This document shows, in pieces, positions 19,152 to 23,992 of a stretch of DNA of 64,000 nt. The notes under the pieces are model-generated. The model saw nothing but the letters and a program-made list of their open reading frames with translations. It had not been told where the DNA came from and searched no databases. Both the position numbers and the translations under genes were made by a program. Where the stretch lies: contig NZ_CALXKQ010000007.1 of NCBI RefSeq assembly GCF_944388875.1, positions 39,849 to 103,848 of the forward strand, given 5' to 3'. Position 1 is the stretch's first letter. The number at the start of each line of letters is the position of its first letter. This DNA comes from an uncultured Brachyspira sp. (lineage in GTDB: Bacteria > Spirochaetota > Brachyspiria > Brachyspirales > Brachyspiraceae).

Positions 19152-20075
19152 TTAAATAAAAAATAATCCCCCATTCCAGTTGTTTGGTATACCTATATCA
19201 CTTATTAATGGTTTATTCTTCAATATCTTGTTTTCTGATATATGCTTAATCATATCATATAAATTATTAATAATAGGTAATGTCAATTCTGTATAAATAT
19301 TAGAAACTTTCACAATATATTCTAATGTTACTATAAAATTAAATAAATAAGAATTTAAAAGTAAATTCCAATTATAATTACTATTAAGTATTACATTTTT
19401 CGGTATAATAGGAGGGTTTAATAATTGTCGGCATAAGATTCTTGAATGATGTACAGATCTATTCCTCATTTCAGTTATAGCAAATAACCAACTTTTTAAA
19501 TACTTATAATGATATAGGTTCATATTGTTAGTTATTAAAGTTTGCAATTTTTTATCAGAAGAAGAATAAAATTTTGATAATGTACCTAAACTCATTATTT
19601 CTACACTTATCCAAATTGGTATTTTAGGATAATCTAAATATTCCTTCTTATAGTGATTAATAAATATTTCTTTTGAACGCAAAACTTCTTTTTTTATTTC
19701 GCTATTTACATTATAATAATTCACTAAATTATAATTAGCAAACGGATCATTATTATATACATCTAAAAAACTTCTAGCTATAATATTTCTCATATATATT
19801 TCTACATAAGAAATACATGAAAATAAAAGCTGTCTTATTTGAATATCATATTTAAAAACTTCAAAGACTTCTTCAAATGTGGTTTTATTAGAAAAATTAT
19901 GAGTTCTTTTATTCGATTTATCCTCAAATATATAAGTATATCCGCTAAAATTATAATAATTTAATTTTTCTAAAACAGATTTAGCATAATTTATATCTTT
20001 TATTAATAATCCTCTAGATTGAAGCAAATTTATTTGATCATTAATTGATAAAGCAGGTTTATTATAATTTTTCAT
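19152..20075 (-). CDS. Abi_2 (AbiD/AbiF-type) abortive infection protein
   Basis: A 307-residue protein of the Abi_2 family, HEPN-like predicted RNases that act as abortive-infection toxins. Seen: N-terminal KPALSINDQINLLQSRGLLI, the first conserved helix YVEIYMRNIIARSF (about residues 91-104), PIWISVEIMSLGTLSKFYSS (about 152-171) and the catalytic-type Rx4H motif in EMRNRSVHHSRIL (about 206-218). The ATG follows a U-run/hairpin (see the RNA feature) with no clear ribosome site, which suggests low expression. Published work on AbiF describes a toxin kept in check by an adjacent structured RNA and relates AbiF to the ancestors of Cas13; this locus has the same layout. The promoter is shared back-to-back with an SMI1/KNR4 gene. 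Confidence 0.85.
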   Translation of the reverse strand: MKNYNKPALSINDQINLLQSRGLLIKDINYAKSVLEKLNYYNFSGYTYIFEDKSNKRTHNFSNKTTFEEVFEVFKYDIQIRQLLFSCISYVEIYMRNIIARSFLDVYNNDPFANYNLVNYYNVNSEIKKEVLRSKEIFINHYKKEYLDYPKIPIWISVEIMSLGTLSKFYSSSDKKLQTLITNNMNLYHYKYLKSWLFAITEMRNRSVHHSRILCRQLLNPPIIPKNVILNSNYNWNLLLNSYLFNFIVTLEYIVKVSNIYTELTLPIINNLYDMIKHISENKILKNKPLISDIGIPNNWNGGLFFI

Positions 20076-20079
20076 AAAT

Positions 20080-20128
20080 AAAAAAGCCCGCAGAGTGAGC
20101 TACCAAAGGTAAGCCCTGCGGTACGGTT
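20080..20128 (-). ncRNA. Small structured RNA in front of the abi gene, candidate antitoxin RNA
   Basis: A transcript from the minus-strand promoter at 20162-20135 would start near 20128 and be about 49 nt long. It contains CCGCAG (20121-20116) pairing with CTGCGG (20093-20088) and an inner stem GCTTACC (20114-20108) with GGTAGC (20104-20099), loop UUU and one bulged U. A run of six U residues follows, four bases before the abi ATG. This is a hairpin RNA with a built-in terminator: most transcripts would end as the small RNA and only read-through would make abi mRNA. This matches the arrangement of the abiF RNA motif and of type III toxin-antitoxin loci. Family membership is inference. Confidence 0.65.
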
Positions 20129-20134
20129 ATTTAT

Positions 20135-20162
20135 ATTATAACAAAATATATCATAAAGTCAA
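20135..20162 (-). promoter_or_regulatory. Promoter for the small RNA and abi
   Basis: On the minus strand, TTGACT (20162-20157), 16 bases, TATAAT (20140-20135). The -35 lies in the 11-bp inverted repeat shared with the divergent promoter. Confidence 0.75.
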
Positions 20163-20214: not shown

Positions 20215-21603
20215 ATGATAAACATAAATAAAGAACTAAACAATGAAAGAAAACAAAACATTCTTAATCTATTAAAAAAATGTAAAAACTTCAAACAATT
20301 CGCATCAGAAAGCCATGAATATAAATTAAATCCTCCTATAGATAAAAATAAAGTTATAGAATTAGAAAATAAATATGAATTCAAACTTCCAGAAGATTAT
20401 TTTTGGTTTATAACTGAAGTAGGCAACGGAGGGGCATGTCATGGCTACAGTATGGACAAATTTGAAGATATGTATTTTGATTATTTAAAATATGATAACA
20501 GAATAGATTTGATGAAAGAATATTCAAAAAAAGTCAATGAAGGAAATGCTAATGATATAGAAGATACAGACTTTGAATATTACGGTATATTAAGGTTTGG
20601 GACTTTGGGCTGTTCATCTTCTATAGGTTTAATAGTAACAGGAGAAAATAGAGGAAGAGTTGTTTATTATGATGAGGAGTTTTACGAAGAGCCTTTTATA
20701 ACATGTTATGATAATTTCGTAGATTATTACGAAAATTGGGCTTTGGAAACATCTCTTAATTATAATATGGGTTCTTTTGGAATAAGGCTAAAACTTGAAA
20801 TTGATGATTTAATAAAAAGCTATCATGATATATTAAATAACAATACAAAAAAAGAAGAAAATTTTATAAATAAACAAAGTATCATAACAACGATGCATAA
20901 ATACAAATCATTAGAAGAAAAATATTTAAATGAAATATATAATTTATACAATTTAGAAAAAGATGAAAATTATAAATTAAAATTTTCTGTTTTATTAATC
21001 AATCATAATTATAAAAAAATAGAAAAACATATAAGAGAAGCATTTCAAAACAAATATATTATAGATTCTTATGTTAAAGTTTTATATTTAAAAGTTCATG
21101 CTGACGCCAATTTGTTTGTAGGCAATTTTAAAAAAGAAATTTTTGATTGGACAGCTGAAATAAAATCGGCATTGGAATATTATAAAAAATTAACTAATAA
21201 AGAAAATAAGAAAAATAACTTTAGTCTTTTTATAGCCATGGCTTTATATCTATATAAAAATAATTTAATTGATTTTAACGAGTTTGATATATTTATTAAT
21301 AACAGAAACTCTACTATATTGTATCTCCTATCTATTAGCAGTTTAGAAAATGATAATATATTCAATATTTATATAGACGAATTTATAAAAGCATGCTCAA
21401 ATAAAAACACAGAAAAAATAAGAAATACAACATCATACTTAGAAAATATTTTAAAAAATAATAAAAAATATAAAAAAGAAATAATAAACACAATAAAAAC
21501 AGAATATCAAAAATTATTAGAATATTATAAAATAAATGAGCCAAAAGATAAATCCATAATACATTTTATAAATAACACTTCAAAAAGAATATTTAATTAT
21601 TAA
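20215..21603 (+). CDS. SMI1/KNR4-domain protein, probably leaderless mRNA
   Basis: A 462-residue cytoplasmic protein. Residues about 30-185 form an SMI1/KNR4 domain (KLNPPIDKNKVIELENKYEFKLPEDYFWFITEVGNGGA; then YGILRFGTLGCSSSIGLIVTG and GRVVYYDEEF). This superfamily includes immunity proteins against contact-dependent and polymorphic toxins as well as regulatory proteins. The remaining 270 residues look helical and are unassigned. No ribosome-binding site precedes the ATG, and the promoter spacing places the mRNA 5' end at or within a few bases of the ATG. It faces away from abi and may belong to the same accessory unit; that link is inference. Confidence 0.75.
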   Translation: MININKELNNERKQNILNLLKKCKNFKQFASESHEYKLNPPIDKNKVIELENKYEFKLPEDYFWFITEVGNGGACHGYSMDKFEDMYFDYLKYDNRIDLMKEYSKKVNEGNANDIEDTDFEYYGILRFGTLGCSSSIGLIVTGENRGRVVYYDEEFYEEPFITCYDNFVDYYENWALETSLNYNMGSFGIRLKLEIDDLIKSYHDILNNNTKKEENFINKQSIITTMHKYKSLEEKYLNEIYNLYNLEKDENYKLKFSVLLINHNYKKIEKHIREAFQNKYIIDSYVKVLYLKVHADANLFVGNFKKEIFDWTAEIKSALEYYKKLTNKENKKNNFSLFIAMALYLYKNNLIDFNEFDIFINNRNSTILYLLSISSLENDNIFNIYIDEFIKACSNKNTEKIRNTTSYLENILKNNKKYKKEIINTIKTEYQKLLEYYKINEPKDKSIIHFINNTSKRIFNY

Positions 21604-21627
21604 AATATTAATATCATAGGAATTAAA

Positions 21628-23992
21628 ATGAAATATAAACCTACAAGCAGAAAAGAATTAAAAGATTTAGTAACAGATGAAAGTATTTATTTAGGTGATA
21701 TTGATACCAGCTTAATAACTGATATGGCAAACTTATTCGATTTTTTTAATAGAGATAATTATGACGGTATAGAGAATTGGGACACTTCTAATGTAGAAAA
21801 TATGGCTGGTATGTTTTCTGCTAATAGGAATTTTAATAAAGATATTAGTAAATGGAATGTTTCTAAAGTAAAAAATACAGCTTATATGTTTTTCTTGGCT
21901 GACAAATTTAATCAACCTTTGAATGATTGGGACGTAAGCAATGTGATAAATATGAATAGTATGTTCATGAATGCTAAAAGTTTCAATCAGCCTCTTGATA
22001 ATTGGAATGTAAGCAATGTTCAAAGTATGAGCGATATGTTTCATTGTGCTGAAAGTTTTAATCAAAATATAAATGATTGGAATGTAAGTAATGTAGAAAG
22101 TATGAATCATATGTTTTCATCTGCCCATAAATTTAATCAGCCTTTATTTAAATGGGATACTTCTAAAGTAAAAGAGATGTTTGGTATGTTTTCATTGGCT
22201 TATGCATTTAATCAGTCTCTTAATAATTGGAATGTAAGTAATGTTACAAATATGAGATGTATGTTTATGTTTGCAAGAGATTTTAATCGACCTATTAATA
22301 ATTGGAATACAAAAAAATTAAAAGATGCTGGAAGTATGTTTTCAAATACATCAGCATTCAATCAAAATTTAGATGATTGGAATATTGATAATCTTTCGGA
22401 TATGACTAATTTTAATAAGGATTCTGCATTAGAATTAACTTTTAAATTCAAGACTTATTTATATGCTTTAACTTTAGATAAAGAAGAAAAAAATAATTTA
22501 AATGATTTTATAAAAAACAATGTAAAAAATATATATAAAATTATAGAAAATCATAAAAATAAAAAAATTAATCTCCTTAAAAGATATTTAATAAATAATT
22601 TTTATAATGAATTAAAAGAATTAATACCAAACTATATTGAAAGTTTTAATAGCATAGAAGAGGTTTATAATTATATAGATAAAGACTATAATAAAAAAGA
22701 TGATAAAAAAGTACAATTTATAGATGATATAAAAATTGAAAATATAGATAAAAGAATAATAAAATATATTTACTTATCATATTTAGAATTAAAAAGAGAA
22801 GCCTACAGAATAAAACAAATAGATTATATTATAAATTTAATTGATGAAAAATCTTTTATAAATGCAATAAAAACAATATACACAAACACCAACAAAGAAA
22901 CCTCAGCTATTATCTGGAGGCGATAAAGCATTAAGAGAGATTTACAAAAAAGAAAAAGATTCAAAACTATGTTTGATTATATTTTCTTTAAATAAAAATA
23001 GTAAATATGCTATTAACATGCTTTATAATTCATTTAGAAAAAGTAAAAAATCTGAAGTAAAAGAGATGACAGAAATAATAATTAAGGATATAGCAGAAGA
23101 AAATAATTTGACTGTTTATGAATTTGGATTAAAAGCTATACCAAATTTTGACTTTGATATAAACGGAGAGAAAATAATAAAAGTTAATAATAATCAGTAT
23201 AAAATAATTTTAAAACATGATTATACTATAGATTATTTTGATATCAAAGAAAATAAAATATTAAAGCAAATACCTAAAGATTTTGATGATAGTACAAAAG
23301 AAGAAATTAAATACATGAAAAAAGAAATCCCAAATATTATAAAAAATCAAAGCAGGAATTTAATAAAAATGTTATTAACAGGAAAAAAGTACGATTTTAA
23401 TTTTTTCAAAGAAATATTTATTGATAATCCAATAATGAATAAATTTGCTATTAATTTAGTTTGGAATTTATTTGATAAAAATAATAGTTTCATAACAACA
23501 TTCAGATATTCATGCGATGGAAGTTATACAAACTACGATGATAATACAGTGAATATAAATAATAATTATTTTGTAAGTTTATCAAGTCCTATAGAAATGG
23601 AAGAGAGTATTATATCAAAATGGAAAAAACAGCTTGAAGATTATGAATTATCACAGCCAATAATGCAGTTTACAAATATAAAAATAAATAATTTAGAAGA
23701 AGCATTACAAAAATTACAAAATATAGAAATAAGCTATGGCACAATAAAAGCATTTTCTCAAAGATATGACATGAATATAGAACATAAAAGTTATTACGAA
23801 ATTAACGGATATTCTTATAAAGATTCATACAATAATCAAGATTTTTATATAAAAACAAAAATTATCAATACTGAAACCAATTATAATGATAAAATAAAAA
23901 TTAATATAGAGTTTAATAATGCAAGTAACAGATTTATATATACTTGGCTTATACTTTTAATATGGGATTTAAGATTAACAGAAATGTTTTAA
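21628..23992 (+). pseudogene. DUF285 (BspA-type) repeat protein fused to DUF4132, split by a frameshift
   Basis: The first frame (21628-22926, 432 residues) holds about nine DUF285 units of roughly 24 residues (pattern FNQPLNDWDVSNVINMNSMF) at residues 40-255, then an unrepeated part. The second frame (open from 22871 to 23992) reads KKPQLLSGGDKALREIYKK and continues with a DUF4132-like C-terminus including SSPIEMEESIISKWKKQLEDYELSQPIMQF. The second part has no credible start codon (TTG at 22973 at best), and removing one base between 22871 and 22926, for example in the A runs near 22893-22900, joins both. I therefore read them as one gene of about 785 residues, disrupted or misread. DUF285 repeats are common in surface and intracellular proteins of Brachyspira and mycoplasmas; DUF4132 has no known function. 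AGGA lies upstream of the ATG. Confidence 0.65.

Follow-up and report, generated by a model that had tools for sequence, protein, structure and literature searches.

A conserved hairpin RNA directly 5' of an AbiF-type gene in Brachyspira is a probable divergent RNA antitoxin

The window analyzed here, a stretch of 64,000 nucleotides from an uncultured Brachyspira sp., carries on its minus strand a gene for a protein of the Abi_2 family, preceded by promoter-like elements and a short hairpin. In the direction of transcription, the locus comprises the following features:

20157..20162, minus strand: -35-like element TTGACT, read from the sequence
20135..20140, minus strand: -10-like element TATAAT, separated from the -35-like element by a 16-base spacer and situated 12 bases 5' of the scored stem start (20122)
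20080..20128, minus strand: predicted small RNA of about 49 nt, its start placed by the -10-like element and its end by the U-run
20088..20121, minus strand: hairpin core, based on folds, the alignment of the type A sequences described below, pair counts and an architecture common with abiF-type RNAs
20121-20116 and 20093-20088, minus strand: outer stem CCGCAG/CUGCGG, from sequence and fold
20114-20108 and 20104-20099, minus strand: inner stem GC(U)UACC/GGUAGC, seven versus six letters with one U bulged
Within the hairpin, minus strand: bulges of one base on the 5' side and UCACU on the 3' side, from the fold
20080..20085, minus strand: U6 run, two bases 3' of the outer stem, resembling the end of an intrinsic terminator
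19152..20075, minus strand: Abi_2/AbiF-type HEPN gene (abi) for a predicted toxin of 307 aa, with its ATG at 20075-20073

The ATG of abi lies four bases 3' of the U6 run, with AUUU in between, and lacks a Shine-Dalgarno-like site. The promoter, the two stacked stems, the U6 run and the nearby ATG without ribosome site had all been described in the original prediction and were confirmed by direct reading of the sequence. From the position of the -10-like element, transcription is predicted to start at about 20128. A divergent cluster of SUKH-1, DUF285 and DUF4132 genes adjoins abi at 20215-23992 on the plus strand; PADLOC returned no match in this cluster.

The product of abi matched Pfam PF07751 with 135.5 bits (cut-off 25.6) and was called AbiD by PADLOC. 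It contains the HEPN motif RN-x3-H as RNRSVH at residue 204, and R204, N205 and H209 were invariant across 23 aligned sequences. A PDB sequence search with the product led to 8vz6 (E 1.4e-26), which according to the entry title is the PbAbiF dimer bound to an ncRNA. When an AlphaFold2 model of the product (pLDDT 81.5) was submitted to Foldseek, 8vz6_A was the only PDB match at E ≤ 0.001 (E 9.7e-12, TM 0.68/0.70), with 25% identity in the structural alignment. Because PF07751, the HEPN motif and the sole significant solved relative, by sequence as well as by fold, all point in the same direction, we regard the product as a protein of the AbiF kind. The studied AbiF members are toxins tied to phage defense, and by analogy the Abi_2 protein is predicted to be a toxin as well.

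Matches to Abi_2 were obtained in 15 of 26 Brachyspira genomes (22 rows), and a hairpin was present 5' of the Abi_2 gene in all 18 loci with a readable upstream side. Not counted among these were L015 and L020, which represent one decayed gene without 5' end, L019 at a contig edge, and L022, which is the second piece of L021. The 18 hairpins fall into two sequence types of nine loci each, both of which occur together in one genome (G001), where each is accompanied by a toxin gene with an open frame. Type A, to which the window (L001) belongs, has the order outer stem, GGGCUU, inner stem, AGCUYACUCU, outer stem, and type B follows the pattern ACCCC...GGGGACAU. In 18/18 Brachyspira loci versus 16/360 shuffles, a -35/-10 pair that reached at least 9 of 12 was found 11–13 bases 5' of the stem, and the same scored pair was found in 20/25 non-Brachyspira loci versus 10/500 shuffles; L068, in which the matched motif sits behind another one and reached 7 of 12, was excluded from this count. 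The leader AA[CT]N[AG] was present in the last eight bases 5' of the stem in 6/9 type A, 9/9 type B and 17/25 other loci, compared to 157/860 shuffles. Many of the loci are closely related and thus not independent of one another. Across RNA types and phyla (43 loci), promoter and stem lie about 12 bases apart and an AACAG/AACAA-like leader recurs, which by eye is also seen in L070 from Prevotella.

The architecture of the hairpin was searched for in further Abi_2 loci with a descriptor demanding an outer stem of at least 5 pairs, a 5' bulge of 1–3 bases, an inner stem of at least 3 pairs, a 3' bulge of 5–7 bases and a U-run; an earlier descriptor without the U-run rule chose AT-rich stems over the motif in several loci and was replaced. 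Matches were obtained in 15/18 Brachyspira loci, including the window, in 22/41 other spirochaete loci and in 3/10 phage or plasmid loci, compared to 6/552 shuffles, 2/69 reverse strands and 0/49 downstream stretches. The misses in Brachyspira were L004 as well as L017 and L018, the latter two being devoid of a U-run. Three of the 22 spirochaete matches (L045, L062 and L063) are unlike the rest and may be due to chance; L062 and L063 are also the only matches (2/11) among the more distant proteins L057–L067. The set of other spirochaetes leaves out the weaker Abi_2 rows after G281 and two partial rows. The layout of a hairpin followed by a U-run is thus not peculiar to this locus, since 22 of the 41 other spirochaete loci fit it. 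By eye, L039, L052, L055 and L074 carry other hairpin-plus-U-run forms 5' of Abi_2 that resemble neither the Rfam abiF motif nor type A or B; L039, L052 and L055 are among the loci without a descriptor match. In L030, L044 and L050, the likely toxin ATG, likewise judged by eye, follows directly 3' of the hairpin U-run without a ribosome site.

Considered alone, the fold of the window RNA is mildly unusual, with a z-score of -2.42 (6/200 shuffles as good), or -2.35 for the 39-nt core (again 6/200), so that it is conservation across the genus that sets the hairpin above chance. The type A hairpin (window 20086-20124) can pair in either of two registers, both at -16.0 kcal/mol, and the GGG and CUC that would decide the register are invariant in the five Abi_2-linked type A sequences. 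In an orphan type A RNA (L085, see below), the middle G of GGG is replaced by A, so that one of the two registers would have an A-U in place of a G-U pair. Covarying pairs in Brachyspira homologs, proposed as a check of the original prediction, were indeed detected in type A: among five distinct sequences, 6/13 pairs changed on both sides (7/500 shuffles as high) and the covariation score was 0.354 versus 0.194 in shuffles (1/500 as high). The number of further pair types, 7 compared to 7.2 in shuffles (384/500), gave no signal for type A. In the type A alignment, 86.2% of the cells pair, versus at most 54.1% in slid versions. The outermost pair is unformed in 3/5 rows and three inner pairs in 2/5, which we attribute to misplacement of the L017/L018 loop by MAFFT. 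Covariation in type B was weak (2/13 pairs, 185/500 shuffles as high). Among 24 non-Brachyspira RNAs (20 from loci of other spirochaetes, three from plasmids and one from a phage), 10/10 pairs changed on both sides, with a score of 0.623 versus 0.200 (0/500 shuffles). These RNAs were chosen by the descriptor and three of them by hand, and the set therefore leans towards structure; this choice alone would not account for how many compensatory changes there are.

The Rfam model of the abiF RNA (RF03085), a search with which had been proposed as a check, left the window unmatched even at E ≤ 10, though it matches loci of other groups. Neither did it match any of the 15 Brachyspira loci at E ≤ 10, nor the 26 Brachyspira genomes when 150 candidates were scored per genome, a scan in which no control matched either. 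At the gathering score, 5/33 non-Brachyspira loci were recognized (L028, L033, L046, L068 and L072), from a set partly picked for carrying the motif. The contrast between 5/33 and 0/15 means that the catalog does not span the full breadth of the family's RNAs. RprA and NsiR9, which appeared at the hairpin in a relaxed-threshold Rfam scan, were far below the gathering score and were discarded. The abiF RNA is placed 5' of Abi_2 genes as well, and resembles the Brachyspira hairpin in having an outer stem, a one-base 5' bulge, a short inner stem and an asymmetric 3' bulge. Its size is also similar: The Rfam motif has 37 positions and the 24 relatives span 35–47 nt, so that the RNA in the window is not unusually compact as had been supposed. 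In contrast to RF03085, type A has the inner stem GCU/AGC with a second stem, a 3' bulge UCACU that is not UCAAAU-like, and no CUCU loop.

Own profile models were therefore made from the 24 non-Brachyspira RNAs (R1), from type A (R2) and from type B (R3). Even with filters off, R1 failed to recognize the RNA of the window in any meaningful way (1.6 bits over nine bases), and it scored one type B RNA at E 0.24. Two spirochaete RNAs 5' of Abi_2 genes, L038 and L042, held by genomes G378 and G321, connect the sets: R1 found them with E 2.3e-4 and E 0.0012, respectively, and R2 ranked L042 (E 0.02) and L038 (E 0.065) first among 51 other loci, neither being part of the training set of either model. 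R3 found the non-Brachyspira loci L044 (5.8e-7), L030 (1.9e-6), L037 (3.5e-4) and L050 (0.013), each match coinciding with the position of the RNA. Type B thus appears to join the wider family directly and type A via L038 and L042, at modest E-values. In the protein tree, which was calculated without L013, L018, L021 and L069 (shorter than 180 aa) and, by choice, without L058, L060 and L061, the type A toxins formed one clade of six rows with a support of 100/100, and the type B toxins were grouped with L044, L030 and L050. The proteins of L038 and L042 were grouped with L031, L029 and L033 and not next to the type A toxins, hence the likeness in GGGCUU...AGCUYACU may be old or convergent. Weak R2 matches outside Brachyspira (L086–L088, E 0.006–0.05) are ascribed to chance, as they have no Abi_2 relative by tblastn and no Abi_2-like ORF by eye among the ORFs listed; that scan, with its stricter filters, missed G378 and G321 and is therefore an under-count. 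Pattern scans of viral contigs yielded at least 160 loci; among the 160 listed, eight reached R2 E ≤ 1 and none showed an Abi_2 relative in tblastn, so that we make no claim for them. Most of the 28 matches of a loose pattern in the 26 Brachyspira genomes are due to chance, and five weak R2 rows in Brachyspira (E 0.5–0.97) were discarded.

Applied to the 26 Brachyspira genomes, R2 detected 10 type A RNAs (E < 1e-5) and R3 nine type B RNAs (E ≤ 0.1), training loci included in both cases, and 18 of these 19 RNAs precede Abi_2. The exception is the orphan type A RNA at L085:1500-1542 (G016:C8:2120149-2120190), which has the promoter-like pair and the hairpin and no toxin gene behind it; there is no Abi_2 match in the entire genome G016. 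Compared to L018, L085 is 88% identical over 1.4 kb up to and including the hairpin, and similarity resumes behind the gene position with 72% over 99 columns. A tblastn search for a toxin remnant at L085 gave nothing convincing (best E 0.16). The RNA is also intact 5' of three broken toxin genes, namely L013 with an in-frame stop, L018 with a lost start and a stop, and L021/L022 split over two frames; intact copies of the Abi_2 gene exist as well, including that of the window. L017 and L018 have lost or never had the U-run, yet they retain the hairpin including the 3' bulge, in which a single letter differs; this is an argument for a role in addition to termination. A decayed gene without RNA was found in G018, where the 5' end of the gene is also gone. 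Both covariation (in five distinct sequences) and retention of the RNA upon loss of the toxin (in one case), as would be expected of a type III-like antitoxin, were thus observed.

Type III toxin-antitoxin systems (ToxIN and kin) combine a protein toxin of the ToxN fold with an upstream RNA antitoxin composed of tandem repeats and a terminator in between. The Brachyspira locus is similar in having a predicted protein toxin, an upstream putative RNA antitoxin and a predicted terminator between them, but the protein is an AbiF protein with HEPN motif instead of a ToxN fold and the RNA is a single hairpin instead of tandem repeats. Further counterparts are AbiFCd/RCd22 from Clostridioides difficile prophages and PbAbiF/AbiFr (PDB 8vz6; Zilberzwige-Tal et al., Cell 2025), in both of which, according to the available excerpts, the RNA binds to the dimer of AbiF and switches off its RNase activity (PMC12373285, PMC12737573). 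For RCd22, the excerpts describe neutralization of AbiFCd in cis and in trans and a toxin that is carried on a read-through transcript (PMC12373285). The order of one promoter, RNA and then toxin with a terminator in between is the same there, as would be, by analogy, the neutralization of the toxin by the RNA (PMC12373285). As far as described in these excerpts, the abiF motif occurs twice in RCd22 and the terminator hairpin is separate from it, whereas a single hairpin would serve both purposes in Brachyspira, and AbiFCd has a ribosome site, which the Brachyspira toxin lacks. With PbAbiF/AbiFr, the locus shares the protein fold, the HEPN motif RN-x3-H and a single-stranded RNA bulge that is said to inhibit the RNase (PMC12737573, PMC12373285), the RNAs being compared by description and not by letters.

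The best reading of these data is that the Brachyspira hairpin is a divergent AbiF-type RNA antitoxin with a stem that doubles as terminator 5' of a Shine-Dalgarno-less toxin. In the window, the hairpin at 20080-20128 most likely serves the adjoining AbiF-type gene as RNA antitoxin, and the outer stem and the U6 run form a predicted terminator that would keep most transcripts out of the gene. This assignment is based on the order of elements, the genus-wide conservation of promoter and hairpin, the covariation, and the persistence of the RNA where the gene is broken or lost. The shape of the hairpin would equally fit the intrinsic terminator of an unrelated upstream transcript that is near abi by accident, a refuting condition named with the original prediction. 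This is contradicted by the upstream neighbor (20215-21603), which is on the opposite strand, by the promoter-like pair 11–13 bases 5' of the stem in 18/18 loci, and by the linkage to Abi_2 in 18/18, and an accidental arrangement is therefore highly improbable. A function exclusively in cis, as attenuator or terminator of the abi mRNA without antitoxin activity in trans, would agree with the stem and U6 right before an ATG without ribosome site and with AbiD1 of Lactococcus lactis, for which the available excerpts describe regulated translation and a structured motif in the translation initiation region (PMC2661086). Such a restricted function seems quite unlikely, as the hairpin and the 3' bulge are kept in L017 and L018 without U-run, the hairpin is kept 5' of broken toxins and in G016, where no toxin gene is left to attenuate, and the related RNA works in trans according to the excerpts of PMC12373285.

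A third alternative is the idea that type A represents a new RNA family that came to control Abi_2 proteins independently and does not share common descent with the abiF RNA. The failure of Rfam abiF and R1 to recognize type A, the separate, fully supported clade of the type A toxins and a signature (GGGCUU...AGCUYACU) that differs from the CAAAUC or ACCAG bulges seen elsewhere would be in line with this idea. However, the order of elements is the same, the distance from promoter to stem is again about 12 bases, an AAC-like leader is present in 6/9, the architecture is similar, and L038 and L042 are recognized by both R1 and R2, so that we regard an independent origin as unlikely. The original prediction that a spirochaete has an AbiF-type gene controlled by a conserved structured RNA is supported by the linkage, the covariation, the promoter spacing, the cases of broken toxins and orphan RNA and the homology to PbAbiF, and has to be corrected with respect to the Rfam match, the supposed compactness and the layout of hairpin and U-run, which many other spirochaete loci share.

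Assuming that the hairpin acts as antitoxin, a sequence of events can be proposed from PbAbiF/AbiFr and AbiFCd/RCd22. Transcription would start near 20128, and most of the RNA would end at 20080 and then fold. The folded RNA with its 3' bulge would bind the Abi_2 dimer and block the HEPN active site. Occasional read-through would produce an mRNA in which the AUG, without ribosome site, is set against the hairpin, and little toxin would be made. When RNA synthesis stops, e.g. upon phage infection, the short RNA would decay and the toxin may then cut RNA and arrest the cell. Since the U-run follows two bases after the hairpin, antitoxin and terminator would be one element, and the terminator may set the RNA-to-toxin ratio. 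A Shine-Dalgarno-like 4-mer was found at the first ATG in 22/39 ORFs of at least 200 aa in the window (background 5.6%), whereas in the 18 Brachyspira loci the ATGs listed within 60 bases 3' of the stem all lack one. Even read-through transcripts should therefore be translated poorly into toxin. It is conceivable, but in our view doubtful, that the 49-nt element combines the functions of antitoxin, terminator and translation lock, with the AUG becoming usable only on rare read-through transcripts, which AbiF itself would cut just after the stem, setting free one antitoxin hairpin and a near-leaderless toxin mRNA. If this were true, it would constitute a self-limiting loop in a toxin-antitoxin unit with a single-hairpin RNA.

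Type A illustrates that the RNA can drift far while the layout stays fixed. AbiF and its RNA were proposed as ancestors of Cas13 and its guide RNA, as stated in the available parts of PMC12737573 and PMC12165695. The matches listed in our literature searches included no report of an RNA linked to Abi_2 in Brachyspira; an earlier mention is possible in the Cell 2025 paper on PbAbiF or in the 2017 motif paper. In the excerpts of a Brachyspira genome paper, abortive infection appears in the references only (PMC3532143). With two RNA types in G001, broken toxins and an orphan RNA, the Brachyspira set makes the cognate specificity of RNA and toxin directly testable. As to the surroundings of the loci, Rfam DUF3800-XI RNA was detected with 40.5 bits at L037:722-770 on the minus strand, in the same contig stretch as the Abi_2 locus. 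Transfer RNA genes lie beside two Abi_2 loci, four in L048:7-368 and one in L017:2058-2129, all on the minus strand, and may represent integration sites.
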